Shown: positions 30,901 to 64,000 of the stretch, piece by piece | Numbering within the stretch: the first letter of the stretch is position 1 | How the letters are laid out: each line of letters starts with the position of its first letter | From: Acidobacteriota bacterium | Lineage (GTDB): Bacteria; Acidobacteriota; Thermoanaerobaculia; Gp7-AA8 | Direction of reading: 5' to 3' | DNA: 64,000 bases | Assembly (NCBI GenBank): GCA_021781455.1 | Contig: JAJXWV010000033.1 | Coordinates: forward strand, 124,001-188,000 | Notes under the pieces: model-generated | The model's input: only the letters and a program-made list of their open reading frames with translations | The model's database searches: none | Told to the model about the DNA's origin: nothing | Position numbers and translations under genes: made by a program

Positions 30901-32815
30901 GAGCACGGTGCGCCCCTTCTTCTATCGAGTCCGGTCCGTTGCGTCATGCGATCCGCAGCAGAAGAGTGACTACTCGAGCATCGACCGCGTGGTCATCGCG
31001 CCGATCCCCACGGAAATCCTCAGCCCGAACGCCAACGTCCCCTCCGGCAGCACGACGATCGTCATTCAGGACGTGCCGATCGCCGGAATCGGCGACGGCA
31101 ACAGCTACGCGTTCACAGCGGCGGTCGACAAACCGTGGATGTCGGTCAGCCCGTCGAGCGGCATCCTCCCGCCGTCCGGGATCGTCCTGCAGATCAGCGC
31201 CGATCCCTCATCGCTGAGCAACGGCACATCCACCGGCACTCTGATCGTCACCATCGTTGCGATGACGACGTCGAACGCACGCACAAGCTCGACGACCAGC
31301 GTCTCGGTCCCAATCTCGATCAGCCTCGTCACTCCGGTAACACCGGCGAGCCCGAGCACGACTCCGGCAAACGCCCTGGTCATCCCGTCGGTGGGCCACC
31401 TCGACGGCATCGACTCGCAGTGGCAGTCCGACGTCCGCGTCGCTAATCCTGGCTTCTCCCGGCAGCAGCTCCTCCTCACTTTCGTTCCGGCCTCGAGCGA
31501 CTCGAGCATCGTCACCACCGGCATGAAGCAGACCACCGTCACCGTCGACGCCGGAGCGACTGTCGCTCTCGACGACATCGCCCGCAACTGGTTCGGCATC
31601 GGATCGCTCGGCGAGGCAGCAAACGGAATCCTCATGATCCGTCCCCTCGCAACTGCCCACTCGAACGCCAGCACGCCGAGCGTCTCCGGCGTCGTAGCCT
31701 CCAGCCGCACCTACAGCGTTTCGAGCTCGGGAACCCGTGGCCAGTACATCCCCGCGATTCCGTTCTCCTCGTTCATCGGAACACCTGCCAGCGGGCAGCT
31801 TCCTTCCGTTCTGAGCCTGCAGCACATCGCCCAGTCGGACGCCTTCCGCACCAATGTCGGCATTGTCGAGGCGGCAGGCGCTCCGGCCGCCGTCACTCTG
31901 AGGGTCTTTGACGCTTCCGGCAGCAACATCCAGGATGTACCGCTGACGATCAGCGCGTACCAGCAGATCCAGCTCAACTCCTTCCTCGCTTCACACGGCA
32001 TCACGCTCAACGACGGGCGCATCGAAGTCCAGGTCACGAGCGGCACCGGCAAGGTCACGGCCTACGCCTCCGTCGTCGACAATGTCACCGGCGACCCGCT
32101 GCTGGTCTCCGGCGTACCTCTGAACCAGACACTGGCCAGCCGCTACGTGCTGCCGGGCGTGGCGCACTTCGACAACGGTCAGACCTGCTGGCGCAGCGAC
32201 ATCCGAATCTTCAACGGCGGCGCCGCGCCGCATGCAGCCACGCTGACGCTTTATCCGCTCGGCGGCGGCACGCCTCTGACCGCATCCGAGACGCTCAACC
32301 CGGGCGAGGTCAGACTGCTCGACAGCGCCGTGCAGTCGCTCTTCGGCGTCACCAACGTCGGCGGTGCGCTCCATGTCACGACTGCAAGCGACTCGAGCCT
32401 GGTCGTCACCGGCCGCACCTACAACGCAGTGGACGGCGGCGGGACGTACGGTCAGTTCATCCCCGCGGTGACCTCGGCTGACGCGGTCGGCAGCGGAGAA
32501 CGCACGCTGCACATCCTGCAGGTCGAGGAGTCGCCGCGGTACCGGACCAACCTGGGAATCGCCGAAGTCACCGGAGAGTCGGCGACCGCCGAGGTCACGG
32601 TCTACCTGCCCGATTCGAAGGTGGCGCCGCGGGTGCAGATTCCGCTGAACGCCTATGAGTACCGGCAGTTTCCAATCATCCAGCAGCTGGGGCTGGGCAA
32701 CGTCTACAACGCGCGAATCGGTATCAGTGTCGTAGGCGGCAACGGAAGGATCACAGCGTACGGCTCGATCATCGACCAGCAGAGCCAGGATCCGACCTAC
32801 GTGCCCGCGCAATGA
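24914..32815 (+). CDS. Giant secreted DUF11-repeat surface protein
   Basis: A protein of 2633 residues. The signal segment ends near residue 47 (ARMFVAAVLACLIAPPLHA). Residues of about 50-770 are a repetitive Gly/Thr/Ser-rich beta-helix-like region (repeated GGTISG, SGATINV, GSGTTIHI). Residues of about 770-1850 hold nine DUF11 domains, each opening with (A/V/S)D-L/V and containing T-x-x-N-x-GPSTAT. Two fibronectin-like segments follow (FTWTAVANATAYEVYVTQG and VQWAAVDGAGSYEVQEAG), then a BACON-like segment (WMSVSPSSGILPP). The end is a double domain with paired phrases (HLDGIDSQWQSDVRVAN / HFDNGQTCWRSDIRIFN; FRTNVGIVE / YRTNLGIAE). No membrane anchor or sorting tail is seen, so release or surface adhesion are both possible. 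It contains a recent internal duplication. Confidence 0.88.
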   Translation: MHSEIMPMVRPSALSRSRRVFAASSSAARMFVAAVLACLIAPPLHADTCSAQGGRFDWNAPAAWSCTGTNGSTYPGEKGIDIATMSGDLPVMANIVAPTPFPVTFSTGGQGAILALQPNGSLTLGEGSAIGALDSINIAGGALVIDTGALLQTQGRITLDSGTLTLNSDLELGVAEVPFAFNGGTISGPGNLTIASGMLFTGSVGAMTISGATINVLGSADYSATSPTTLSINSGGRIRVIGPGELSLSGTGTINADALSSIDVLTGANLYVYASPATINATVNNEGTVTSDAQLQLKGGGNHFGRFDAINAGSILFSGTHNFGGGTSFTNSTGAPAFQFDGAASQFNINTGFVNIPGLNWTGGTIGGGNTLSLLTSNIFDGSALAIGSGTTIHIPADVSGSLSLGTSTNVAGPGALELGLGATITVNGSPNVISAPVTIGSPTIVFGNFGAITFSGGGTINSGTFATTDLTNTFTFGGSFLVHAGTFRGPGAFCISPGGVFTIDNMNAPVAFVGTPGSSRLYNAGTIAFLPPATSVDVSGFAIRNDPSGTIDLQNDTSLTAATQAATILNDGGVFEKTAGSLTSSIQPAFTNGSTVIVKTGTLDFTNAYTQSGGTTILAGGTLAMLGGAGTFTLNSGNLEGTGTIQGKLATYPGGVVWPGLRSPLSPGSIRVTGDYVQSGALQVDLGGTVPGSGYDVLNVDGNATIGGALGITYISPFTTPNGQAYSVLTSANPVSGTFSVIHYPDLSPAWKTTYAANAVQIAMTQADLAIAHTAATSVANGQDIVYTINVTNNDPTLTATNLSISNMFTATFKAVSPSPCVTNDPNWITCSVASLAPGATYTITLTLTTSAVGSVSNLAGVNGAEFDPNTANNESTATVEVTPAVDLGVTLTDTPDPVLAGANVTYTIDVANGGLDPSATEDLLTLTLNDGTIVSVSSPFPCSNTTTKAICKMPAIPIGGNASMTIVATASTAAEMSLDATATDANDTNPANNAASQRTTITPAADLAVSQSASPTTLFNGKGSVVTVTVTNIGPSTATSIPLTDLFGGPVTISGATTADGTCLITGPKVSCTILSLASGASAVVTIDVLAAGSGTVTSSPAVPTSTPPLSQHDPIPANNSAVPVSITVNPASDLSIAVTPPASVYAGKDGAFSVAIYNAGPDAAASYDASLTITGGTIVSATGAMTCTTTATSAGCSGSSLAAGGTATVSIVATADAGASLAIEGTVAAASDPNATNNGPVSTSVAITASADVSASQSAPASVFHGQNATVTVIIGNTGPSTATNVTLTDAFTNGSFVSATASQGTCSGTTAVTCAIGTLASGASATVTLVLTATGASPLTNSASAMAAEHDPLPSNNTPAPLAVAVNPSADVSASQSAPASVFHGQNATVTVIIGNTGPSTATNVTLTDAFTNGSFVSATASQGTCSGTTAVTCAIGTLASGASATVTLVFTATGASPLTNSASAVAAEHDPLPSNNTPAPLAVAVNPSADLSVTQTGPAALFDGQNAVLKIVVTNHGPSTATSVGISDSYSGGTFGSVSSTGGSSCSGTLPVACSISSLAAGATETITLTLTANVPGTMSNTVSATSPIFDGDPANNNSSATVKVTATADLAVSCTASPNPVDPARDTTITASIRNLGPSTAADVKFTDSFTGSTSASVATSQGTCSLSTTINCSIGTLAPGATAQVTIALRAGTVDIQNSASVSASETDPNGNNNSSTLTIALTRADVWVSKSGPVSASPGDSVTYTITIGNDGPSTSTAISLTDPTPAGLTAASVRGACVLLPCLISPLHAGANATISATYTVATGGDAPALITNTASVLADNDPSSSNDSSSVTTSLACKTQPPTPVSPLTGEVIGSPVTFTWTAVANATAYEVYVTQGTTLSLGTTSGTSLTGSVGNGPFSWYVVATTSDCGPMTSASVSPSACNRPDTPLASVVANAASGQTYSVQWAAVDGAGSYEVQEAGSVDFTDATTQAVTGTSLSFTHAATSTVRPFFYRVRSVASCDPQQKSDYSSIDRVVIAPIPTEILSPNANVPSGSTTIVIQDVPIAGIGDGNSYAFTAAVDKPWMSVSPSSGILPPSGIVLQISADPSSLSNGTSTGTLIVTIVAMTTSNARTSSTTSVSVPISISLVTPVTPASPSTTPANALVIPSVGHLDGIDSQWQSDVRVANPGFSRQQLLLTFVPASSDSSIVTTGMKQTTVTVDAGATVALDDIARNWFGIGSLGEAANGILMIRPLATAHSNASTPSVSGVVASSRTYSVSSSGTRGQYIPAIPFSSFIGTPASGQLPSVLSLQHIAQSDAFRTNVGIVEAAGAPAAVTLRVFDASGSNIQDVPLTISAYQQIQLNSFLASHGITLNDGRIEVQVTSGTGKVTAYASVVDNVTGDPLLVSGVPLNQTLASRYVLPGVAHFDNGQTCWRSDIRIFNGGAAPHAATLTLYPLGGGTPLTASETLNPGEVRLLDSAVQSLFGVTNVGGALHVTTASDSSLVVTGRTYNAVDGGGTYGQFIPAVTSADAVGSGERTLHILQVEESPRYRTNLGIAEVTGESATAEVTVYLPDSKVAPRVQIPLNAYEYRQFPIIQQLGLGNVYNARIGISVVGGNGRITAYGSIIDQQSQDPTYVPAQ
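28681..29400 (+). repeat. Recent 360-bp tandem duplication of one DUF11 domain
   Basis: 28681-29040 and 29041-29400 are identical except for C/T at 28916/29276, A/G at 28961/29321 and G/C at 29039/29399 at the boundary. Each unit is 120 codons, so the frame is kept. All other DUF11 copies have diverged strongly. Confidence 0.97.
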
Positions 32816-51738: not shown

Positions 51739-53898
51739 TTACTGGCCGAAGATCCGTTTCAGCCGATCCCAGCCCTTTTCGACCTGCTGGCGCTCGCGGT
51801 CGACCTGTCCGGCCCACTCGCGGAACTGTTCGTACGTGATCGCCGGCGGTTCGTCGAAATGCTTACGGTCGAAAAAGATCCGCCGGACGATTCGGCCGAG
51901 CATTCCTGTCGGACAGTGGCGCGTTGGCGCCGTGCCGTCGAGAAAAACCTCATGGAACGGTCCCGGGCAGCCGTCGCTCCACAGCATGCCGGTCTCGGGA
52001 TCGATGTCGCGGAACGTCACGCCCGCTGGCGGCGCGGGCTGGGACGTGCTGTGCGGGATCGCGCTCATGTACGAGCCCCAGATCGGGATGGCAGCCTCGC
52101 CGGAAGAGAGCCGCAGCGGCTCGCCGCGGTCGAAGCCCAGCCATACCGTGGTGACCATGTCGGCGGTGTAACCGACGAACCAGGCGTCGCGATAATCGCT
52201 CGTGGTACCGGTCTTTCCGGCGGCGTAACCGAGTCCGTAACGCTTCAGGCGGTACGCCGTTCCGCGCTCGACGACGCCGCGCAGCAGAGTGTGCATGACG
52301 TACGCGACGTCGGCGCCGATCACACGCTTCTGATCCACGTGGTGCGCCATCAGAACCTTGCCGCCGGCGTCGCGGACTTCCCGGACCAGGAAAGGCTCCG
52401 ACCGCAGTCCGAGGGTCGGGAAAGCGGTGTATGCAGCAGTGAGCTCGCGCATCGTCACTTCGGTGACGCCGAGAGGGAGCGCCGGAATGTCGCCGAAGCG
52501 CTCCCCGAATCCGAACTTCTCGGCGGTGCTGGCGACGCGCTCGATCCCGACCTGCTGGCTGAGCCGCACCGTCGGCACGTTCAGCGAATCCTCGAATGCC
52601 TCGCGGACCGACACGCGCCCCCGGTAGCGCATGTCGTAGTTGTGCGGCTGCCAGGTCTGTCCGCCGCTCACGTCGATGGAGAGGGGCGCGTCGAGCAGCA
52701 GGGACGCCGTCGTGACGCGGCGCGAGGCGATGGCGGCGGCATACGCAAAGGCCTTGAAGGCCGACCCGGGCTGGCGACGCATGTGGGAGGTCCTGTCGAA
52801 GGGCGAGAGATCGAAGTCAGACCCTCCCACCAGAGCGCGAACTCCGCCCGTTCGCGGGTCAACCGAAAGGATCGCCACCTGCAGCGGCTCGTCTTCGGAC
52901 TGTCGGCGGATCCACGAATACTTCGCTTCGAGCTGCTGCGGCCCGCGGCGCGCGGCCTGCTCAGCTGCCACCTGCGCTTTCGGATCGATTTCGCAGGTGA
53001 TGGTCAGGCCGCCTTCGATGACCGGCGCGACACCGATCTGCTGCACGATCTCGGAACGGAGAGCGCGAAGATAAAACGGGTACGGCGCCCGCGGAATCGA
53101 GCCGGTCGTGAATTGCACGTCGTGCAAAACAGCATCGCGATATTGCTGGTCGGTGATCCAGCCATGCTTCCGCATCACCTGCAGGATGGCGTCGCGGCGT
53201 GCGCGCACGACCTCCGGCCGCTTTCCCGGCGTGTCGCGGTTAGGCGCCCGGACGATGCTGGCCAGCAGCGCGGCCTGATCGAGCCGCAGCCGGGAAGGCG
53301 GCTTGCCGAAGTAGAGACGCGACGCCTCGTCGATGCCGAGCACCGGCTTGCCGGCGTTGTGGCCGAGGTAGACGTCGTTGAGGTAGATCTCCAGGATCTC
53401 GTCTTTCGACATTCGGGCGTCGAGGAGCACCGCCAGAAGCATCTCCACGATCTTTCGCTGCCAGGTGCGCTCCGGCGTCAGGAAACGCGCCCTGATGATC
53501 TGCTGGTCGATCGTGCTTCCTCCCTCCGCGATGCCGCGCAAGCGAATGTCGGCAACCAGGGCGCGCAAAATGCCGATCGGGTCGATCCCGAAGTGGTGGC
53601 GGAAGCGCACGTCCTCGGCGGCCATGAAGGCATCGCCCACATACGGGGGAAGGCCGGCCAGGGAGGCAGGCGGGGTGGGGCGCCAATCGACTCCGTAGAG
53701 GCGGGCCACCTCGGCGTTCGTCCCTCCGGCGGCCGAGACAATCACGGTCGGCTCGCGCCACGTGTGTCGCACCAGCTGGCGTGTGACACGCAGATCGAGG
53801 ACCAGCAGGTAGACCGCCGCAGCTTCGAGCACCAGCCAGAGCGCGATCGCGATGACGAGCGTCACTCGCGGACAGCGAAGGCGTGACAATCGCAGCAT
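51739..53898 (-). CDS. Class A penicillin-binding protein (PBP1-like)
   Basis: A protein of 719 residues, short for the family. One N-terminal membrane anchor (about 11-33) is followed by a GT51 glycosyltransferase (catalytic E95 in AAEDVRFRHHFGID; GGSTIDQQI; EILEIYLNDVYLG). The transpeptidase then shows SxxK in PGSAFKAF, SxN in EDSLNVPT and KTG in GYAAGKTGTTSDYRDAWFVGY. It polymerises and crosslinks peptidoglycan. GGSTIDQQI replaces the usual GGSTITQQ at one position. The 102-base upstream gap is shared with the divergent histone-like gene. Confidence 0.94.
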   Translation of the reverse strand: MLRLSRLRCPRVTLVIAIALWLVLEAAAVYLLVLDLRVTRQLVRHTWREPTVIVSAAGGTNAEVARLYGVDWRPTPPASLAGLPPYVGDAFMAAEDVRFRHHFGIDPIGILRALVADIRLRGIAEGGSTIDQQIIRARFLTPERTWQRKIVEMLLAVLLDARMSKDEILEIYLNDVYLGHNAGKPVLGIDEASRLYFGKPPSRLRLDQAALLASIVRAPNRDTPGKRPEVVRARRDAILQVMRKHGWITDQQYRDAVLHDVQFTTGSIPRAPYPFYLRALRSEIVQQIGVAPVIEGGLTITCEIDPKAQVAAEQAARRGPQQLEAKYSWIRRQSEDEPLQVAILSVDPRTGGVRALVGGSDFDLSPFDRTSHMRRQPGSAFKAFAYAAAIASRRVTTASLLLDAPLSIDVSGGQTWQPHNYDMRYRGRVSVREAFEDSLNVPTVRLSQQVGIERVASTAEKFGFGERFGDIPALPLGVTEVTMRELTAAYTAFPTLGLRSEPFLVREVRDAGGKVLMAHHVDQKRVIGADVAYVMHTLLRGVVERGTAYRLKRYGLGYAAGKTGTTSDYRDAWFVGYTADMVTTVWLGFDRGEPLRLSSGEAAIPIWGSYMSAIPHSTSQPAPPAGVTFRDIDPETGMLWSDGCPGPFHEVFLDGTAPTRHCPTGMLGRIVRRIFFDRKHFDEPPAITYEQFREWAGQVDRERQQVEKGWDRLKRIFGQ

Positions 53899-54000: not shown

Positions 54001-54507
54001 ATGGCTGCCTCTAAGAAATCGAAGAAGAGCTCGAAGAAATCCGCGTCCAGAAAATCCTCGAAGAAGTCCTCCAAGTCTGCGAAGTCGGCGAAGAAACCGG
54101 CCCGGAAATCCGCCGCGAAGAAGTCGAGCAAGCGGAAAGCGAGCAAGCCGGTCAAGAAGGCGAGCCGTTCGGGCAAGCGGCCAGCAGCAAAGAAGGCCGC
54201 CCCGAAGAAGAGCGCTCCGAAGGCCAAAGCGGCCCCGAAGAAGGCTGCTCCGAAGAAAGCCGCTCCCAAAAAAGCCGCTCCGAAGATGGCTGCTCCGAAG
54301 AAGAGCGTCATCAGCCGTGTGGTCGATCAGGTCCGCGAGACGGCTTCGAACGTCGGCCAGAGCGTGACGTCGATGTTGCCGGGCCAGAGCCAGCCTCAGC
54401 CCGAGGCGCCCAAGCCGCCTTCGCCGCCAAAAACGCCTTCGTACGACAGCGGCACGTCGGGCGGCGGCGGCATGCCCCCGACCGGCGGCACCACTCCGAA
54501 CTTCTAG
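54001..54507 (+). CDS. Histone H1-like Lys/Ala/Pro-rich protein
   Basis: A protein of 168 residues. The first ~100 residues are almost only Lys, Ala, Ser and Pro in KKS/KKAAPKK repeats, as in bacterial H1-like proteins and eukaryotic H1 tails. They should bind DNA without sequence preference. The C-terminal part (VISRVVDQVRETASNVGQSV, then Gln/Pro/Gly-rich) is different. AGGAG precedes the ATG. DNA of 54225-54300 is a 15-base tandem repeat (GCTCCGAAGAAGGCT-like), a hotspot for length change. Confidence 0.85.
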   Translation: MAASKKSKKSSKKSASRKSSKKSSKSAKSAKKPARKSAAKKSSKRKASKPVKKASRSGKRPAAKKAAPKKSAPKAKAAPKKAAPKKAAPKKAAPKMAAPKKSVISRVVDQVRETASNVGQSVTSMLPGQSQPQPEAPKPPSPPKTPSYDSGTSGGGGMPPTGGTTPNF

Positions 54508-54561: not shown

Positions 54562-55629
54562 TCAGCCGCCGACGGTTTCGAAGAACTTCCGGATGCGCCT
54601 GGAGAAGTAGCGCTCCGGCAGGCCGTTCTTCCACGAGCGCGTCTTCTTCGCTTTCGTGAACGAGTCGATGGCCGCTTTCCTGTACGTTTCGTCGGCCTCG
54701 AAGGCGTACTGCGAATACTGCGACGCACCGAGGAAAGCCCAGATCCAGCCGTTGTTCGGCATCGTTCGGGAGAGCTGCTCGAAACCGCGGGCAGCCGATG
54801 CGAACTCGCCGGCGAAGTAATTGTTGAGCGCCGTGCGCAGGACCGACTTGTAATCCGCGATTGCCGCTTCAGTGGCCGCAGCGGCGCGTGGGGTCACCGT
54901 CGCGGCACGCACGGGCGGTGAAGCGGGGGCACCCGGCGGCACGGCGGAATCGGCGAGCAGTGCCGCGTTCTCGGCCGCGGCGAGTGCGGCGTTCAGATCG
55001 TCGTTGCTTTTCGCGGTGGCCAGTCTTGTGTTCGCTTCGGTGAGTGACTGGAGGGCTTGCGCGTACTGCGGCGAGGTGCCCGCCTTACGACCACGCGCCC
55101 CGGCCAGGCTGGTGTTCGCCTTCTGGACCGCCGAAGCGACGCGCCCGCGGAGCGCCGGGTCGATGGACGGCGCTGCCGGAGTCACGGGAACGGGCGTCGC
55201 CGGGACCGGCCGCGGCGGCTGCTGGGCAACGGTCGCAGGTTCCTGCGGCGGCGGTGCGCTGGCAGCGGCGAGCTTCGTCTTGGCTCGCTGCATGAGCGTG
55301 TCCAGCGAGCCGAGGTCCACCTCGCCAGCGCCGCTGGTCTTCTCGAACTCGCTGATGGCCTGGTCGTACTTACCGAGGTTCAGGTAGGCGACGCCACGGT
55401 AATAGTGCGGGTGATAGTTGATGAAGATCGCGCCGTAGGTCCGCTCGTTGTTGCTCTCTTTGTCGTGAGCGTTGATGGCCGCGGTCATCTTCTGGACGGC
55501 CACGGACCACTGGCCCTTGCGCACGGCGTTGAGACCGGCGTCGTAATCGTCGTACCACGACGCCAGGGCCGCGCCGGCCGTGAGCAGCGCGATGAAGAAC
55601 GCGATGGACAGAACTCGAACCCGGATCAT
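54562..55629 (-). CDS. Exported TPR-type protein, last gene of the kinase operon
   Basis: A protein of 355 residues with a signal peptide (VLSIAFFIALLTAGAALA). TPR-like helices occur near 30-110 (YDAGLNAVRKGQWSVAVQKM, YRGVAYLNLGKYDQAISEFE). A Pro/Ala spacer follows, then a C-terminal helical repeat domain (NNYFAGEFASAARGFEQLSR, WIWAFLGASQYSQYAFEADE). The ATG overlaps the kinase stop by 4 bases. It would act in the periplasm, next to the outer part of the kinase. Role unknown. Confidence 0.7.
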   Translation of the reverse strand: MIRVRVLSIAFFIALLTAGAALASWYDDYDAGLNAVRKGQWSVAVQKMTAAINAHDKESNNERTYGAIFINYHPHYYRGVAYLNLGKYDQAISEFEKTSGAGEVDLGSLDTLMQRAKTKLAAASAPPPQEPATVAQQPPRPVPATPVPVTPAAPSIDPALRGRVASAVQKANTSLAGARGRKAGTSPQYAQALQSLTEANTRLATAKSNDDLNAALAAAENAALLADSAVPPGAPASPPVRAATVTPRAAAATEAAIADYKSVLRTALNNYFAGEFASAARGFEQLSRTMPNNGWIWAFLGASQYSQYAFEADETYRKAAIDSFTKAKKTRSWKNGLPERYFSRRIRKFFETVGG

Positions 55630-57404
55630 TGGCCCATTTCCTTGATGAGGTTGTCGATGTCGACGTTACCCATGTCCACCCTCTGCGTGGTCGGCTGGCC
55701 TGCCTTGATGTCGACGTCGATGGTCTTGGTCCCGTTCATGCCGCTGAGAGTGACGATGTACTTGCCCGGTGCGAGCTCGATGCGCGCCGGCGTCGAGCTG
55801 GCGTCGCTGGGTAGATCGACCTTCGACTGATCCCTGGCATTCACGATCTTGTCGACGTCGCCCCACGGGGATGCCGAGAGCAGCAGGACACCGCGATCGC
55901 CGCTGATCGGCTTGGCGGCCGGCGCGGTCGCGGTCACGGCGGTCGTGGCCGGCACCGCGGTCAACGTGGCCGCGCTCTGCGGACTCGGGCGTCGAACCAT
56001 CACGAAAATCGCAATGCCCACGGCGATGACTACAACCGCGGCGATGGCGGCAAGGACGGCCACGTTCTTCCTGGGTGGAGGGGCGGGCGCGGGCTGCATC
56101 TGCCGCTCCAGAACGGTCGGCTCCGCTGCCGCGGTCGAGCCGAACTTTCCCTTCGTCTCGAGAAGGGTCGCCTCGGAGCCGGCGCCGCCGGCTCTCTCCA
56201 TGACCGTGGCCTCGTCGCTGCCGGTCGTCTTGCGCTCGAGGACGGTCGGCGCACCCGAAGCTGTGGCGCCCGTAACGCCGCGCTCGATGACGGTGGCCTC
56301 GTCCGCCGGTCGTCCGACGGTGCGCGCCGGCTTCGTGCCGCCCTGCATCGTCCCGCCGGTGAAGGCGGGCAGGTCGGCCAGGGTCTTCGCGCCCGAAAGC
56401 GTGACCAGCTTGTCGCCGAGGCCGTACCTGGCGTCGGGAGCGACGTCGTTCCTGATGGCCTCCAGCGCGGCAACGAAGTCACCGGCGTCCGCATAGCGGT
56501 TGTCGCGGCTCTTCTCGAGCGACCTCATGATGATCGCCTCGAGCGCCGGCGGAACCTTCGTCTCGGGGTTCGTCTCGACGATCGGAGCCGGCTTTTCCGT
56601 GACGTGCTTGAGGATGTACCCGTGTGGATTCGTGGCCTGGAAGGGGGCCCGGCCGGCCAGCATCTCGTACATCACGATGCCGAACGAATAGAGGTCGGAT
56701 CGCGGATCGAGATGCTCCCCTTCCTTGAGAAATCCAGCCTGCTCGGGCGAGGCGTACTTGAGTTTCCCCAGGAACATGCCGGTCTGCGTGAGGCCGTGGC
56801 CCGACTCCCCTTCGGCGAGCGACTTGGCGATGCCGAAGTCGATCACTTTGACCAGGAGCTTTCCGTGGTGATCCTGCGAAAGCATGATGTTTTCGGGGGA
56901 AATGTCGCGGTGGATGAGGCCCATCGAGTGCAGGTGCTCGAGCCCGGTGAGGGCCTGGATGGCGATCTCCACGCTCAGCCGCGGCGGCACGGGACCGTTC
57001 TGGGCGATCCACTTCTGAATGTTGGTGCCGTCGATGAACTCCCAGACCATGTAGTAGGAGCCGTCGTCGAGCTGGGCGAAGTCATAGAGCATCGCCAGAT
57101 TGCGATGCTTGATCATCGTGGAGGTGCGCGCCTCCTGCAGGAAGCGCTGCATGCCCTGGTCGTCAGCAGCCACGTTCGGCCGCATGATCTTGATGACGCG
57201 CAGCTCGTTGAGGTGGATGTGCCGGACGCGGAAAATCTCGCCCATCCCGCCGATGCCGAGGCGATCGAGGATCTGGTACTTGCCGTCGATCAGGCGCGCC
57301 GAATACGTGCGCTGGAACAGCGTCACGCGCTCGCCGCAGCTGGGGCACTGCTCGACCTCGGAATCGATCGACTGCCGGCATCGAAGACAGGTGATTTGGC
57401 TCAT
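55626..57404 (-). CDS. Ser/Thr protein kinase with zinc ribbon and TVxER repeats
   Basis: A protein of 592 residues. A zinc ribbon (C6-x2-C9, C20-x2-C23) precedes a Hanks-type kinase domain (about 43-310): GIGGMGEIF loop, K72, HRDISPEN (catalytic D167), VIDFGIAK and YASPEQAG. The cytoplasmic linker (365-440) repeats a short motif five times (ATVIER, PTVLER, ATVMER, ATLLET, PTVLER), likely phospho-Thr sites. A membrane segment (448-471) leads to an outer domain with a PEGA-like end (RIELAPGKYIVTLSGM). It sits in an operon with three FHA-domain proteins and a PP2C phosphatase. Array F separates it from the previous gene. Confidence 0.9.
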   Translation of the reverse strand: MSQITCLRCRQSIDSEVEQCPSCGERVTLFQRTYSARLIDGKYQILDRLGIGGMGEIFRVRHIHLNELRVIKIMRPNVAADDQGMQRFLQEARTSTMIKHRNLAMLYDFAQLDDGSYYMVWEFIDGTNIQKWIAQNGPVPPRLSVEIAIQALTGLEHLHSMGLIHRDISPENIMLSQDHHGKLLVKVIDFGIAKSLAEGESGHGLTQTGMFLGKLKYASPEQAGFLKEGEHLDPRSDLYSFGIVMYEMLAGRAPFQATNPHGYILKHVTEKPAPIVETNPETKVPPALEAIIMRSLEKSRDNRYADAGDFVAALEAIRNDVAPDARYGLGDKLVTLSGAKTLADLPAFTGGTMQGGTKPARTVGRPADEATVIERGVTGATASGAPTVLERKTTGSDEATVMERAGGAGSEATLLETKGKFGSTAAAEPTVLERQMQPAPAPPPRKNVAVLAAIAAVVVIAVGIAIFVMVRRPSPQSAATLTAVPATTAVTATAPAAKPISGDRGVLLLSASPWGDVDKIVNARDQSKVDLPSDASSTPARIELAPGKYIVTLSGMNGTKTIDVDIKAGQPTTQRVDMGNVDIDNLIKEMGQ

Positions 57405-57422
57405 TGGGGCTCCGTGGTTCTA

Positions 57423-57485
57423 AGTCCTGAGTCCTGAGTGCTGAGTCCTGAGAAGGTGCCACTCAGGACTCAGCTCTCAGCACTC
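57423..57485. repeat. Palindromic heptamer array, CTGAGTC family (copy F)
   Basis: Left arm 57423-57452, right arm 57461-57485, in the 83-base gap between two codirectional kinase genes, 19 bases before the start codon. If the six genes are one transcript, this array is inside it. Confidence 0.85.
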
Positions 57486-57487
57486 GT

Positions 57488-58714
57488 TCAATGGTCTCTC
57501 AGCACGTAACTGCAGGACGGGTCGGCGCCGAATCGCACGACGTCGCCTGGTTTCAGGTTTGCGCGCTCGATGCGAGCGTTGTTCACATATGTTCCGTTGG
57601 CGGACTTCAGGTCCTCCAGCACGCATGACGATCCGCTGAATGTGATTTTCGCGTGGCGCCGCGACACGGCCGGATGCGTCAGCACGATCGAGCAGGTCCG
57701 GTCGCGGCCCACCATGACCTCGCCGTCGATCGAGTATTTCTCGTTCGAGTCGTTCTTCACGCCGACCAGGGCCCACTGGTTCTTCTTCTCCGCCGGGTTC
57801 GGCAGATCGACCCGTGTGGCCATGGCCACGGGGGCCATCTTCGCCGCGGGCCGCAGGGGCTGACGGGCCTCGTACTCCTCGAGCGCCTCGTAGAATTCGC
57901 GTGCGCTCTCAAAGCGCTGATCCATGCGCGGGCTCATGGATTTCAGAACGATCGCCTCGAGCTCCTTGTCCACTTCCGGGCGCAGCGCACTGGGCGGCTG
58001 CTTTTCGCCGCGGTAGATCGCGTCGATGAGCTTCGGCAGCGACCGGCTGTTGAAGGGCAGCTGGCCAGTCAGCATCTCGTAGAGCACGACTCCCGACGAG
58101 TAGACGTCCGCCCTGGCGCCGGCGTCCTTCGGCTCGCGGATCTGTTCCGGCGACATGTAGTGCGGTGTGCCGAGCAGAAAGCCCGACTTCGTGAGCACAG
58201 TCTGTCCCGGGCTGGTGCCGCCCTCCCTGATCTTGGCGATCCCGAAGTCCGTCACCTTGACGTTGCCGGACTTTTCGCGAATCAGGTTGGCGGGCTTGAT
58301 GTCGCGGTGCACGATCCCCTTGCCGTGCGCGTAGACGAGCGCCTCGAGGAGGTTCTGGGCGATGCCGATCGCATCCTGGAGAGGGAGCGCTCCCTTTTCC
58401 GCGAGGAGGACGTCGACGGGCGTTCCCTCCACGTACTCCATGATCAGGACAGCGTGTTGGGCGTCGTTGATGAACTCGTAAAACCGGGTGATGTACCGAT
58501 GGCGGAGCTTGGCCAGGATCTGCGCTTCCTTGACGAAACGCTTGCGGGCCGTGACTTCTCCGGCCAGTTCGTCGGACATGACCTTGAGCACGACCGGATA
58601 GTCGAGAGGGAGCACCTCCGTCGCGCAAAGGGTGCGCCCGACGAAGACGTGGCTCATGCCGCCCTCGCCGATTTCACGGTCTATCCGATAGTTTCCGATG
58701 ACGCTGCCGTTCAT
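57488..58714 (-). CDS. Ser/Thr protein kinase with C-terminal FHA domain
   Basis: A protein of 408 residues without membrane segments. Kinase domain (about 8-270): EIGEGGMSHVF, VVLKVM, VHRDIKPANLI, VTDFGIAKIREGG and PHYMSPEQIREP. FHA domain (about 320-405): MVGRDRTCSIVLTHPAVSRR (R and S/H that bind phospho-Thr), LKSANGTYVNNARI. It can phosphorylate and then bind phospho-Thr targets or itself. The stop of the FHA gene upstream overlaps its ATG by 4 bases. Confidence 0.93.
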   Translation of the reverse strand: MNGSVIGNYRIDREIGEGGMSHVFVGRTLCATEVLPLDYPVVLKVMSDELAGEVTARKRFVKEAQILAKLRHRYITRFYEFINDAQHAVLIMEYVEGTPVDVLLAEKGALPLQDAIGIAQNLLEALVYAHGKGIVHRDIKPANLIREKSGNVKVTDFGIAKIREGGTSPGQTVLTKSGFLLGTPHYMSPEQIREPKDAGARADVYSSGVVLYEMLTGQLPFNSRSLPKLIDAIYRGEKQPPSALRPEVDKELEAIVLKSMSPRMDQRFESAREFYEALEEYEARQPLRPAAKMAPVAMATRVDLPNPAEKKNQWALVGVKNDSNEKYSIDGEVMVGRDRTCSIVLTHPAVSRRHAKITFSGSSCVLEDLKSANGTYVNNARIERANLKPGDVVRFGADPSCSYVLRDH

Positions 58715-59370
58715 TGAAGAACGCCCTCACTGTCCCAGATGAATCCTTCGCCGCAGAGCGGTACGAAGAGAAACCGATGTGAACCGATACGGACGACGTC
58801 GCCTGAGACCAGATCGCGGCGCGGCTCGATCTCCGCTTCGTTGACGTAGGTGCCGTTGGTGGAGTTGTGGTCCATCAGGATGTAGCGCCGCTCCTCGGGA
58901 CGAAAAACCAGATCGGCATGATGCGCCGAGGCCTGGTCGTCGTTGATGACGACATCCGAACGGCGGTCGCGGCCGAGAACGTTGCGACCGATGCGGACCG
59001 TGTACGACTCGCCGCGGGCAGTGGCGTTGAGCCCGACCAGCCAGGCCACCACGTACCTCTTCGCCTGCCCGTTGACGTCGATCTTCTGCACTGCCACCGT
59101 GCGTTCCATCGGCGGCGGCTGGACCGTTGGAGGAACGTCGCGGCGCGGTGGCGGGGCAGGCGCCGGAGGAACAGGAACCGCAGTGACCGGACCGCGCTGC
59201 GGCAGCGACGGCGGCTGCGGCGCGCGAGGTGGCTCCGGCTGAACTCGCGCCGGCCGGACGATGGGCATGTCGGGCTCGCTCTTGTCCGCCGGACAGTACG
59301 GACAGAGATCCCACGACTCGTCGATGAAGTGTCCGTTTTCGCACCGCTTGTCCGCCACGTTCAACCTCAC
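58711..59370 (-). CDS. Zinc ribbon-FHA adaptor protein
   Basis: A protein of 219 residues. N-terminal zinc ribbon (C9-x2-GH...CPYC), a Pro-rich linker (about 40-90), and a C-terminal FHA domain (about 125-205): RIGRNVLGRDRRSDVVINDD, ASAHHADLVF and DHNSTNGTYVNEAEI. It has no enzyme part, so it is likely a phospho-Thr-binding adaptor for the kinases. Starts and stops overlap neighbours (ATGA both sides). Confidence 0.88.
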   Translation of the reverse strand: MRLNVADKRCENGHFIDESWDLCPYCPADKSEPDMPIVRPARVQPEPPRAPQPPSLPQRGPVTAVPVPPAPAPPPRRDVPPTVQPPPMERTVAVQKIDVNGQAKRYVVAWLVGLNATARGESYTVRIGRNVLGRDRRSDVVINDDQASAHHADLVFRPEERRYILMDHNSTNGTYVNEAEIEPRRDLVSGDVVRIGSHRFLFVPLCGEGFIWDSEGVLQ

Positions 59371-61004
59371 GCGTGAAACGCAACCGCTACGGCATTGCGA
59401 CCGCCGAAATAAATGATGTCGCCGTCGTTGAGGTAACGCTTATCGATCTTCTGGTCATTGACATACGTACCGTTGGACGAGTTCCGGTCGATGAGCAGCA
59501 CTTTGCCGTCGATGGAAACCACCTCGGCATGGAGCCGCGAGACCTTGGGGTTGTCCAATACGATCTCACAAATCGTGCGCTCGCGGCCGATGCGGATGCC
59601 CGAACCGCCGAGCCCGAGACGCTCACCCGCGCGGGCACCATTGAGAATCGTGAAACGGCCGAGGAGACGCTGCGCCGACCCCAGCATTCCTTCGCGGTCC
59701 GGCGAGACGATCGTCTCGACCGTCTTTGCATTCGTCAGGTCGCGGGGAATGCGGTTCCTGCGGATCCCGGCAAACAAGCCGAACATCAGCACCGCGGCCG
59801 CGGCGGTCGCCGTTGCGGTCGTGGCCACGGGATGAAGCGTCCACACCGGCAGGTTCTTCATTGCCCGGTCGATGTCGTTGCCGAATCGGAGCACGTCCGG
59901 AGACTTCGGGAAGAACGCCGCGGCCGCGGAAAGCTCCTTCCGCGCAACCACCCACTTGCCGTCCGCCGCGTCGTCGAGAGCCTGGCGATAACGGCGGTTG
60001 AACTCACCGTCGACGTTGATCGGGACGCCGGCCCGGTTGAGAATGTCCCTGGCCACGTTGATCGGCACGAGAAACTTGATCTGCTCGGCCTCGCTGTGCC
60101 CCCACGTCGAGATCGCCACCACATCCCCGTCGCGGTCGACGGCCGGACCGCCCGAATTCCCCGGATAAATCGCCACGTTCGACTGCAGCACCGGAATGTT
60201 GGCGACGTTGCGCTTGATGGCCGTGATCATGCCCGGATTGGAAGTGGCTTCCAGGTCGCTGTCGCGCGAAAGCCATCCACCGATGACTTCGTCGGAACTG
60301 CTGGCCACGGCCGGATAGCCGACCGACAGGACCGAATCGCCAACGCGCACCGTGTCGGAGTCGCCGAGGTGCAGCACCGGCAGATTGTTCTGCTGCACTT
60401 TCAGCAGCGCCACGTCAGTGCCTCGCGCGCTCAGATCGGGAGAATAGACGCGCGTCGTGAACGGCAGCGTCTCGCCGTTGGAGAGCTCGACCGTGTTCAC
60501 GATGGCGGTCTTCTCCACGCTCCCCGCCGCGGCAATCTCTCCGATGAAACGCTCCAGGCCGTCGGTCCGGTAGATCGAGCGCAGCTCATCGACCGGAAAG
60601 TGCTTCACCAGTGCTGCGATCGCTCCGTTGCGCCTGAGCTCGCGGTCGAGCGAAGCGCGGTCGCGTGTCGGTGCCACGACATGTCCGCTCGTGAGGATGA
60701 AGCCCGACGGATGAACGATGAATCCACTGCCCGAACCGCCGGCGCCCGTCGGGATCAAGCCATCGCCGGCCGGCAGGCCTCGCGGCGCCGACAAACCTTC
60801 GCGCCCATGAGCAATCTCGTTAGCTACGTTGTTGATCGCCGCCGCCGGATACCGGAATTGCGCCGTGGCGTACGCGCTGATCCTCACGACCGCGGGCTTG
60901 ACGCTGTAAGCCATCTTTCGGCCCTCATCGAGCCGGACCGTGCGATGGCAGCCTGTGACCAGGGCCAATGAACTCGCGAGCAGGACCAGGGGGCGGCGGA
61001 GCAT
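59367..61004 (-). CDS. Trypsin-like membrane protease with cytoplasmic FHA domain
   Basis: A protein of 545 residues. A lipobox-like signal (SLALVTGC) leads to a HtrA-type serine protease domain (about 85-330): H108 in TSGHVV, D197 in GTDVALLK and S284 in YPGNSGGPAVD. A helical region follows, then a membrane segment (about 395-425; AAAAVLMFGLFAGIRR) and an FHA domain (about 470-545): IRIGRERTICEIVLDNPKVS, RNSSNGTYVNDQKI. No PDZ domain. The topology puts the protease outside and the FHA inside, so phosphorylation could control, or report on, outer proteolysis. Overlaps the zinc ribbon-FHA gene by 4 bases. Confidence 0.9.
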   Translation of the reverse strand: MLRRPLVLLASSLALVTGCHRTVRLDEGRKMAYSVKPAVVRISAYATAQFRYPAAAINNVANEIAHGREGLSAPRGLPAGDGLIPTGAGGSGSGFIVHPSGFILTSGHVVAPTRDRASLDRELRRNGAIAALVKHFPVDELRSIYRTDGLERFIGEIAAAGSVEKTAIVNTVELSNGETLPFTTRVYSPDLSARGTDVALLKVQQNNLPVLHLGDSDTVRVGDSVLSVGYPAVASSSDEVIGGWLSRDSDLEATSNPGMITAIKRNVANIPVLQSNVAIYPGNSGGPAVDRDGDVVAISTWGHSEAEQIKFLVPINVARDILNRAGVPINVDGEFNRRYRQALDDAADGKWVVARKELSAAAAFFPKSPDVLRFGNDIDRAMKNLPVWTLHPVATTATATAAAAVLMFGLFAGIRRNRIPRDLTNAKTVETIVSPDREGMLGSAQRLLGRFTILNGARAGERLGLGGSGIRIGRERTICEIVLDNPKVSRLHAEVVSIDGKVLLIDRNSSNGTYVNDQKIDKRYLNDGDIIYFGGRNAVAVAFHA

Positions 61005-61008
61005 GTCT

Positions 61009-62079
61009 TCAGTGGATCCAGTACAGCCAGGCGCCTGTGAAGCCGAGCACCATTACGACGATGAACATCCACTTCAGAAAAGGATTCCGCGTCCGTGCGC
61101 CGGGCCGGCTCTCGGATGGGGCGGGTTCGGGTGCGGTGACGGGCTCCCCGGGGCTCGCTGCTGGTCCAGGGGACGTCGTTGCGGACGAGGGCTGCAGCAT
61201 CGGGGCGGGCACGTCGCGGACGGTGTCGTCGAACATAGCGCGATCGGAGTGCTCGACCAGAGTCTCCTCGAGGTGAGCCGTGCCTTCTCCCCCGCGCTCG
61301 GCGCGCGCCACGATGACGGTGACGTTGTCGGGAGCGCCGCGCTCCAGGGCCCGACGGATGAATTCGTCAGCCGCCGCCTCGATCGATTGCCGCGCCACGT
61401 CACGGATCTCCTGTTCCTTGACCACGCCATGCAGCCCATCGCTGCAGATGATGAACGTGTCTCCGATCTCGATCTTCAGGGGACCGCGAATGTCGATCTC
61501 CACCTCTTCGGAGACGCCGATCGAGCGTTGAAGGACGTTGCGCCGGGGATGGTTTTCCGCCTCCTGTGCCGTGAGGAGACCTTCGCGAACCATCGAAGCG
61601 ACGAGCGAGTGATCATCGGTAAGCTGACGGATCTCGTCGTGGCGCACCAGATAGATGCGCGAGTCGCCGACGTGTGCAAACCATGCCTCGTCATCGCGAA
61701 CGACAAGCGCCGAGGTGGTCGTGCCCATGCCCCGCAGATCGGGATTCGACTGCGCCTCGGCGAACACGCGGGCATTGGCGCGAGTCAGTGCGTCGCGAAG
61801 GGCGCTGGCCACGTCATCGGTCTCGCTGCCGAGGTACTGTGCCTTCACGGTCTCGGTGGCAATACGCGACGCCGTGGCACCGCCGCGGTGCCCGCCCATG
61901 CCATCGGCGACGATCATCAGCCGGCCGCCGGGATGCCCGTCCCGCCCCTCCTCTTCGCGCGTCGATAGCACGCCGAAGTCCTGGTTTTCGGAGCGGACTC
62001 GTCCCACGTCCGTGCGCAAGACGGCCCGGATCACCAGGGACTTGGACGGCGTGGGCGGTAGGGCTGTCGATTCGCTCAT
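61009..62079 (-). CDS. PP2C-type Ser/Thr protein phosphatase, tail-anchored
   Basis: A protein of 356 residues from the ATG at 62079 (GGAG upstream). The PP2C domain (about 15-260) has metal motifs VRSENQDFG, IVADGMGGHRGG, GTTTSALVV, HVGDSRIYLV, ICSDGLHG and GAPDNVTVIV. A Pro-rich linker and one C-terminal membrane segment (WMFIVVMVLGFTGAWLYWI) anchor it with the enzyme in the cytoplasm. As first gene of the operon it should reverse phosphorylation by the two kinases. A TATAAT lies upstream. Confidence 0.93.
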   Translation of the reverse strand: MSESTALPPTPSKSLVIRAVLRTDVGRVRSENQDFGVLSTREEEGRDGHPGGRLMIVADGMGGHRGGATASRIATETVKAQYLGSETDDVASALRDALTRANARVFAEAQSNPDLRGMGTTTSALVVRDDEAWFAHVGDSRIYLVRHDEIRQLTDDHSLVASMVREGLLTAQEAENHPRRNVLQRSIGVSEEVEIDIRGPLKIEIGDTFIICSDGLHGVVKEQEIRDVARQSIEAAADEFIRRALERGAPDNVTVIVARAERGGEGTAHLEETLVEHSDRAMFDDTVRDVPAPMLQPSSATTSPGPAASPGEPVTAPEPAPSESRPGARTRNPFLKWMFIVVMVLGFTGAWLYWIH

Positions 62080-62142
62080 GACGGCTCCAGGCGCAATTCG
62101 TTGCGCCGAAGTCGATCGCTTCTCTGCGGGAACGAGACACCA

Positions 62143-62148
62143 ATTATA
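62143..62148 (-). promoter_or_regulatory. -10 box of the phospho-signalling operon
   Basis: TATAAT on the minus strand, 64 bases before the PP2C ATG; -35 not clear. The remaining part of the divergent 62080-62393 interval shows no gene or repeat that I can recognise. Confidence 0.45.
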
Positions 62149-62393: not shown

Positions 62394-63872
62394 ATGGTCG
62401 CGCTGCTGATGGCCCTGGCTGGAGCAGCGTCCGCTGCGGACACTGACCAGACCGTACGGGAGGCGCTGCGGGCGCGCGCCGCCGGCGAGTACAGCACTGC
62501 CTCACGGCTGCTCCGCGATGCGCTCGCCCAGGCGCCCGGCCGCTCCGACGTCGAGCTCCTTCTGGCCGAGACTCTCGCGTGGAACAAGCAGTTCGCCGAA
62601 GCCGAGAGGTCGTACCTCGATCTCCTGGTCCGCACGCCTCAATCCCGCGCCGCGCGCCTCGGTCTGGCCCGCGTGCTGTTGTGGAAGGGCGAGTACGCCG
62701 CCGCGCGGCGGCAGTTCGGCGCGTTGCTGCGGGAGAATCCGCGCGATGCCGACGCGCTCGAAGGGAGCGCTACAGCTGCGTACTGGAGCGGCGACTTCCG
62801 ATCCGCGGCTGCCGCATTTCGCCAGACACTGGCGCTCGACCCGAGCCGCGATTTCCCGCGCCGCAGCCTCGCCGAGATCGCCGCAGCATCGGTTCCGGAG
62901 GAGCGCGTCTCGTTCGGGTACGTCGATGACAACCAGCCCTACCGGTTGCTTCGAAGTGAGCTTCACGCGGCGTTCTCGTCGGATCCGCTGACGCGATGGA
63001 GCGCTGCAGCCGGTGAATATCGGAGCAGCGCGCCGATCTATGGCCGTGCTTCGCTGCCATTCATTCGAATCGGCAACCGCATTGGGCTGCCCGGTATTCG
63101 GCTGACCGTGGACACGTCGCTCGGCGTGCTGAAATATGCCGATGGCGTGGTGCGGCCTGTCGGCGGGCTGACGCTGACACGACGCGTGTTCACGAACGGG
63201 GCCCTGATCGTCCGCGCTGAACAGCGCGAATTGCTCGCGACCGCCACCGGCATGAGGACGCATCCCTCGGTGGCGACGTTCAGCGCGGGCTGGCGGCGCG
63301 AATCGACCGACGGCTGGCTGGCCGCAGCGAACGCTTCGATTCTCCGTTACTTCGACGCCAACCGCGGGAAGGAGGCGTACGCGTACGCGCTCGTTCCGTT
63401 CTACAGCCACGGCCAGTCGCGGCTCTACGCGGGAGCGTCGGCGACCTATCGCGATTCGCGCAGCAGCCGGTTCTCCTTCGCCGCCGTTTCCTCGACGCGG
63501 ATTGCCCCAAACGATTTTGCCTACGCATACCGCGGCACCTACGCTCCTTACTGGACGCCGCAGCAATCTCGTGAAGCGCGCGCCGTGATCGTGGCCCAGA
63601 CGAAGGTCCGCTCGATCGCTCTCAAACTGCATGTCGACGCCGGCGTCGGGCGCGATCGCGCCATCGCGTTCGGACCGGACCAGGGCAGGACGCCCCTTCC
63701 GGCGTCGATCTATCCGGTCGCGTTCCAGCGGCGCTTCCATCCATACGATGCCGACCTCACCGCCGCGATTCCTCTCGGTCGCGATCTCACCGCCGAGCTC
63801 GGAGTCGAGTCGCTCAGCACCGTCTTCTATCGCGCAAAGAGCTTCCATGCCTTTCTGGTCCGACACCGCTGA
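62394..63872 (+). CDS. TPR protein with outer-membrane barrel, exopolysaccharide type
   Basis: A protein of 492 residues from the ATG at 62394, which follows GAGGAGGG and starts a signal peptide (MVALLMALAGAASA); 62367 is the alternative. TPR helices cover about 20-150 (SRLLRDALAQAPGRSDVELL, ARLGLARVLLWKGEYAAARR, TAAYWSGDFRSAAAAFRQTL). The remaining ~320 residues have alternating aromatic beta-strands (ASLPFIRIGNRIG, AYAYALVPFYSHGQSRLYAG, ASATYRDSRSSRFSFAAVS), as in PgaA/YaiO-like barrels. This is the layout of exopolysaccharide export porins. The next gene overlaps by 26 bases. Confidence 0.75.
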   Translation: MVALLMALAGAASAADTDQTVREALRARAAGEYSTASRLLRDALAQAPGRSDVELLLAETLAWNKQFAEAERSYLDLLVRTPQSRAARLGLARVLLWKGEYAAARRQFGALLRENPRDADALEGSATAAYWSGDFRSAAAAFRQTLALDPSRDFPRRSLAEIAAASVPEERVSFGYVDDNQPYRLLRSELHAAFSSDPLTRWSAAAGEYRSSAPIYGRASLPFIRIGNRIGLPGIRLTVDTSLGVLKYADGVVRPVGGLTLTRRVFTNGALIVRAEQRELLATATGMRTHPSVATFSAGWRRESTDGWLAAANASILRYFDANRGKEAYAYALVPFYSHGQSRLYAGASATYRDSRSSRFSFAAVSSTRIAPNDFAYAYRGTYAPYWTPQQSREARAVIVAQTKVRSIALKLHVDAGVGRDRAIAFGPDQGRTPLPASIYPVAFQRRFHPYDADLTAAIPLGRDLTAELGVESLSTVFYRAKSFHAFLVRHR

Positions 63873-64000
63873 CATCTTCCGGCACCGCCGCGCTCCGGAG
63901 GTGAAGACGTGGGAACGCGTCGTCCTGGGGGTGCTTCTGTTTCTTGGCGTGCAGAGCGTCGCTTACTTCGGTCTGTGGTGGTTCCGCCTCGAGCACGTCA
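63847..64000 (+). CDS. Start of a membrane glycosyltransferase (3' end outside window)
   Basis: Open from the ATG at 63847 to the window edge (51 codons): MPFWSDTADIFRHRRAPEVK, then a membrane segment (ERVVLGVLLFLGVQSVAYFG) and WWFRLEHV. The W-F-x-x-x-H-V pattern after the first membrane helix is typical of family-2 glycosyltransferases/cellulose-synthase-like proteins. With the preceding TPR/barrel gene this suggests an exopolysaccharide locus. Based on a short N-terminus only. Confidence 0.55.
   Translation, partial: MPFWSDTADIFRHRRAPEVKTWERVVLGVLLFLGVQSVAYFGLWWFRLEHV

Follow-up and report, generated by a model that had tools for sequence, protein, structure and literature searches.

What does a periplasmic-type protease do when it is joined through a transmembrane (TM) helix to a phosphothreonine-binding FHA domain and encoded together with Ser/Thr kinases and a protein phosphatase? 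The question is raised by six genes in a 64,000-nucleotide stretch of an Acidobacteriota genome (hereafter, the window; contig JAJXWV010000033.1, positions 124,001 to 188,000). A preliminary description of the window had proposed that these genes form a self-contained trans-envelope signalling complex. Here we report that the operon is real and conserved throughout a bacterial order, and that it combines known parts with one unusual part, the protease-FHA fusion. We regard it as a variant of bacterial Ser/Thr kinase-PP2C-FHA signalling in which the membrane-spanning protease-FHA protein is the component for which we found no description in the open-access texts searched.

The six open reading frames occupy positions 54562-62079 of the minus strand and are read in the order PP2C phosphatase (61009-62079), protease-FHA (59367-61004), zinc ribbon-FHA (58711-59370), soluble kinase-FHA (57488-58714), a second kinase carrying TVxER repeats, designated here kinase2 (55626-57404), and an exported TPR protein (54562-55629). 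The ORF list and Pfam searches bear out the six reading frames and their domains as originally described. The junctions had been characterized as mostly 4-base overlaps, which holds for three of the five in the window (protease/zinc ribbon-FHA, zinc ribbon-FHA/kinase-FHA and kinase2/TPR), but the PP2C and protease genes are separated by a 4-bp gap and the two kinase genes by 83 bp. Of 18 loci, 17 keep the zinc ribbon-FHA/kinase-FHA overlap, and the 15 loci that show both kinase2 and the TPR gene all keep the overlap between these two. The start of the PP2C gene, previously placed at position 62148, had to be revised: there is no start codon at that site, and alignment with orthologs fixes the ATG at 62079. 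Position 62148 is instead the first base of a perfect and conserved TATAAT (62143-62148, minus strand), the probable -10 element of the operon promoter. The hexamer precedes the PP2C ATG by 26-73 nt in 16 of 16 loci, against 0.16 expected by shuffling when 130 nt upstream are searched, and was found upstream of the five internal genes in none of 85 cases. Because the box precedes PP2C in every locus and none of the internal genes, the six genes read as one transcription unit, as had been proposed. A search of the region for a sigma-70 type hexamer pair found none, and terminator-like sites did not exceed the shuffle background.

The protein that sets this operon apart is 545 aa long and consists of a signal peptide with lipobox, an HtrA-like protease domain, a two-helix TPR-like segment, a TM helix and an FHA domain, as delineated by Pfam (Trypsin_2, 2.7e-23; FHA, 5e-19), AlphaFold2 and Foldseek. 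In the AlphaFold2 model (mean pLDDT 86, pTM 0.68) the protease barrel and the TPR-like segment are followed by the TM helix (about residues 392-411), a disordered linker and the FHA domain (447-545). The best Foldseek matches are HtrA1/MucD (E 1.7e-15), and a PDB profile search likewise placed HtrA1, MucD and DegP nearest. The protease fold and the catalytic triad (H108, D197 and S284) are thus shared with HtrA, DegP and DegS, whereas the fusion departs from these proteins in having a helical insert between His108 and Asp197 (AlphaFold2) and a C-terminal TM helix and FHA domain, and in lacking a PDZ domain (none was found by Pfam); the best score to a full-length HtrA model of NCBIfam was 92.5 bits against a cut-off of 450. 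Within the order the N-terminal signal sequence ends in an invariant Cys and fits a lipobox in most members, and relatives outside the order carry ordinary signal peptides. If this reading of the topology is right, the protease domain is periplasmic and the FHA domain cytoplasmic.

Alignment of 37 protease-FHA proteins revealed that the residues of the FHA phosphothreonine pocket (G473, R474, S489, H492 and N511) are invariant (37/37), whereas the catalytic triad is complete in 35, from which it follows that the binding function is more strictly conserved than the cutting function. In the two exceptions, from genomes G222 (locus L058, same family as the window) and G047 (locus L069, family f16), the His and Asp are lost and the Ser and the full FHA pocket are retained; by their residues, these proteins are predicted pseudoproteases that belong to two separate lineages.

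The remaining components supply what the preliminary description had called writers, erasers and readers: the operon encodes two complete kinases, one PP2C and, counting that of the fusion, three complete FHA domains. As had also been claimed, its products are predicted to have parts on both sides of the membrane. The PP2C protein (356 aa; Pfam PP2C_2, 2.5e-17) has a C-terminal TM helix and is of the Stp1/IreP type, exceeding the Stp1/IreP/PstP cut-off of NCBIfam NF033484 (250.5 bits vs 230); among the matches listed, none of the other five proteins passed a curated NCBIfam cut-off. The zinc ribbon-FHA protein is soluble (FHA, 1e-17 by Pfam) and keeps a CxNGHx8CPYC signature in 18 of 18 orthologs. 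Kinase-FHA, also soluble, joins a kinase domain (Pkinase, 2e-48) to a C-terminal FHA domain (8.7e-22), and its HRDIKPAN motif and FHA residues are kept in all orthologs long enough to cover them. Kinase2 is composed of a zinc ribbon, a kinase domain (Pkinase, 2.3e-44) whose LTQT activation loop was present in all 16 orthologs found, the TVxER repeats, a TM helix and a domain that had been labelled PEGA-like. This label is tentative: four of 14 orthologous domains match Pfam PEGA (best E 2.5e-4), and the window copy itself gives no match. Both kinases match the same PADLOC models of anti-phage kinase systems (PD-T4-6, MADS), mostly within the generic kinase domain and in an output that carries no cut-offs. 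The TPR protein (355 aa) gives a weak Pfam TPR match in the window, and TPR matches are found in 14 of 14 orthologs. Its AlphaFold2 model is all-helical (pLDDT 79, pTM 0.36); a fold search returned nothing below E 0.001, with generic TPR superhelices at the top of the list, and in a sample of 297 genomes full-length matches were confined to this order.

The TVxER motif reported earlier in kinase2 was confirmed. Five T[VIL]xE motifs are present in the window copy, and the juxtamembrane linkers of 15 orthologs contain 42 T[VIL]xE[RKS] motifs, where 0.4 are expected by shuffling. Related threonine motifs recur in other components: a DDTVRDV-like motif in the PP2C tail, seen in the ortholog alignment together with related motifs in ortholog tails; an [ED]RTV-like motif just ahead of the FHA domain in most of the 18 zinc ribbon-FHA orthologs; and a TV-type motif between the TM helix and the FHA domain in 26 of 37 protease-FHA proteins, the last count resting on a loose pattern with no shuffle control. 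In the distant family represented by locus L061, three TVLE/TLLE motifs stand beside the FHA domain of the FHA protein. Precedents exist in PknB, whose phosphorylated juxtamembrane region binds the FHA protein FhaA, and in StkP, where phosphorylation of the juxtamembrane region helps to recruit division proteins (PMC12077195). By analogy, we infer that the TVxER-type motifs are FHA ligands.

Conservation of the gene set outside this genome had been named as a check, and it is observed throughout the order. All 13 complete loci carry the six genes in identical order, and five further loci ending at contig ends are consistent with the six-gene order as far as their sequence reaches. Since the proteases of the complete loci are only 38-72% identical to the window copy, an arrangement shared by all of them is not attributable to chance. 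Protease-FHA proteins were detected in 17 of the 18 family genomes, the exception (G300) being a fragmented assembly, and also in the single genome that represents a second family of the order in the sample. None was found among the genomes listed for the rest of the class, and a search of plasmids for relatives returned partial HtrA matches only, with no fusion. In a sample of the phylum, 27 of 396 genomes match the protease-FHA profile, G365 among them with a protein that lacks the FHA domain, and outside the order the fusion is sporadic. The co-occurrence of the six families holds across the order, but elsewhere in the phylum protease-FHA is accompanied by subsets of them only. Seven of 12 phylum families (f1, f2, f16, f19, f27, f43 and f57) have a kinase, a PP2C and/or an FHA gene linked to it, and in the other five (f21, f31, f73, f74 and f78) no kinase, PP2C or zinc ribbon-FHA gene was found nearby, the one related neighbour being an FHA-GGDEF gene in f21 (L123:11140-12144). 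This gene adjoins protease-FHA and provides a second link of such loci to nucleotide second messengers. In f16, a SecA gene lies immediately 3' of protease-FHA (L061:9988-12627).

The flanks of the operon vary between loci. In 10 relatives it is adjoined by a divergent FHA gene of about 550 aa, and the one copy scanned with Pfam (L046:11625-13304) encodes an FHA-GAF-adenylate/guanylate cyclase, the first such link. In the genome of the window, an FHA gene is found instead some 9 kb upstream of the operon (C43:195390-195590). Given this recurrent neighbour and the subsets of genes found elsewhere in the phylum, "self-contained" is too strong a term, although the six-gene set itself is constant within the order. 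On the downstream side, a plus-strand ORF (54001-54507) whose product is rich in Lys, Ala and Pro and resembles histone H1 is convergent with the operon. It is followed by a class A penicillin-binding protein (PBP) gene (51739-53898), which forms a block with a metF-like gene.

Several known systems share parts of this design. The mycobacterial PknA/PknB-PstP-FhaA/FhaB cluster likewise groups a membrane Ser/Thr kinase, a Stp1/PstP-type PP2C and FHA readers, and in both systems the juxtamembrane linker of the kinase is a likely FHA docking site. The operon differs from that cluster in lacking PASTA domains, RodA and PbpA, and in adding kinase-FHA, a reader fused to a periplasmic protease, a PEGA-like outer domain and the TPR protein. 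An explanation modelled on this likeness, in which the operon is a cell-wall module regulating the PBP encoded downstream, appears improbable to us. It draws on the Stp1/IreP type of the PP2C and on the class A PBP gene: of 14 loci whose sequence extends beyond the TPR gene, 11 have it downstream in the same orientation. That gene, however, is a separate unit, set off in the window by the intervening opposite-strand ORF, and in three loci that retain all six genes (L047, L057 and L058) no adjoining PBP gene was found. Moreover, the two kinases score 281 and 268 bits to the PASTA kinase model NF033483 (cut-off 450), over the kinase domain only, and the best score to the FhaB equivalog NF049868 is 58.9 bits (cut-off 125). 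The threonine phosphorylation pathway of type VI secretion (PpkA-PppA-Fha1) also links a kinase, a PP2C and an FHA protein, and this common toolkit is what could make the operon a phosphorylation cassette of a T6SS or T7SS. We consider this highly unlikely. The protease-FHA and TPR proteins are foreign to the T6SS pathway, and most genomes here lack a T6SS. The sheath component VipB is absent from the window's own genome and from 15 of 18 family genomes (present in three), WXG100 proteins of T7SS/ESX exceed the cut-off in none of the 18, and no secretion genes were found among the neighbours tested. With these machinery markers absent, the secretion cassette is largely refuted. TerY-P triads comprise the vWA protein TerY, a PP2C and a kinase with a zinc ribbon; the PP2C and zinc ribbon-kinase are shared with the operon, and Pfam found no vWA domain among the six proteins.

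The reading we favour, and to which we give an even chance, is that the operon encodes a trans-envelope phosphothreonine switch through which the cytoplasm controls a periplasmic HtrA-like protease. Its more specific form, which we advance tentatively, is inside-out, kinase-gated proteolysis, in which a cytoplasmic phosphothreonine array recruits and switches the membrane-spanning HtrA-FHA protease; this way of controlling the envelope was not found described in the open-access texts searched. The anatomy can be read in the sequence; the direction of signalling and the substrate we infer. HtrA proteases act as trimers or larger oligomers. Under the proposed scheme, kinase2 would use its PEGA-like domain to sense a cue from the envelope and become activated by autophosphorylation at the LTQT loop. 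It would then, together with the soluble kinase-FHA, phosphorylate the TVxER threonines and the similar motifs in other components, on which the FHA domains of protease-FHA, zinc ribbon-FHA and kinase-FHA could dock. Docking would cluster the protease beside the kinase, and clustering or release might switch periplasmic proteolysis or, in the two lineages with pseudoproteases, the capture of substrates. Kinase-FHA, once recruited, would probably serve as an amplifier at the array. For the exported TPR protein an outer-side role as adaptor or substrate is probable, and the membrane-anchored PP2C would reset the array. The switch model is supported by the intact operon and its order-wide synteny, by the topology and fold of the fusion, in which a TM helix connects the protease with the FHA domain, by the invariant FHA pocket, by the TVxE[RKS] array and the threonine motifs in protease-FHA linkers and in the TVLE-containing L061 protein, by the kinase, PP2C or FHA genes linked to protease-FHA in seven of the 12 families, and by the PknB/FhaA and StkP precedents (PMC12077195). 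Weighing against it are the five families in which protease-FHA has no kinase, PP2C or zinc ribbon-FHA gene nearby, and the loss of the catalytic His and Asp in two lineages, because of which proteolysis cannot always be the output.

The same observations could be read in the opposite direction. The periplasmic protease-like domain might be a sensor whose ligands or cleavage substrates are misfolded envelope proteins or the TPR protein, with the FHA domain merely tethering it to the kinase and with a cytoplasmic output through other substrates or the neighbouring FHA-cyclase. An HtrA protease that serves as an envelope sensor is already known in DegS. The stricter retention of FHA residues than of the triad would fit such an outside-in flow, as would the recurrence of the divergent FHA(-GAF-cyclase) gene beside the operon and the persistence of the two pseudoproteases in loci linked to PP2C or to the whole operon. 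We nevertheless hold it to be possible rather than probable: 35 of 37 proteins keep the full triad, and therefore catalysis is under selection in most lineages.

The known targets of bacterial Ser/Thr kinase circuits lie in the cytoplasm or the membrane. A direct physical link between a phosphothreonine reader and a periplasmic protease, as in the inside-out switch, would constitute a new outward route of information across the inner membrane, by which phosphorylation inside the cell could govern the cutting of proteins beyond it. Neither a trypsin/HtrA-FHA fusion nor this operon was found described in the open-access full texts searched; the nearest literature was a 2005 survey of kinase architectures (PMC1262709) and a 2020 eLife study of conflict systems that mentions trypsin and FHA separately (PMC7159879). 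The operon is compact, is conserved through an order known mostly from metagenomes, and offers precise handles for experiment in the TVxER phosphopeptides, FHA Arg474 and protease Ser284, the pseudoprotease lineages representing a natural separation of binding from cutting.

Two further features of the window deserve mention. Beside the operon, at 62394-63999 and beyond (L041:10394-14575), genes for a TPR protein, a family 2 glycosyltransferase/cellulose synthase-like protein and a GH26 protein take the place of the FHA-cyclase gene, and may form an exopolysaccharide cluster. At a distance from it, a 2604-aa ORF (25001-32815) contains nine DUF11 and two CARDB matches.
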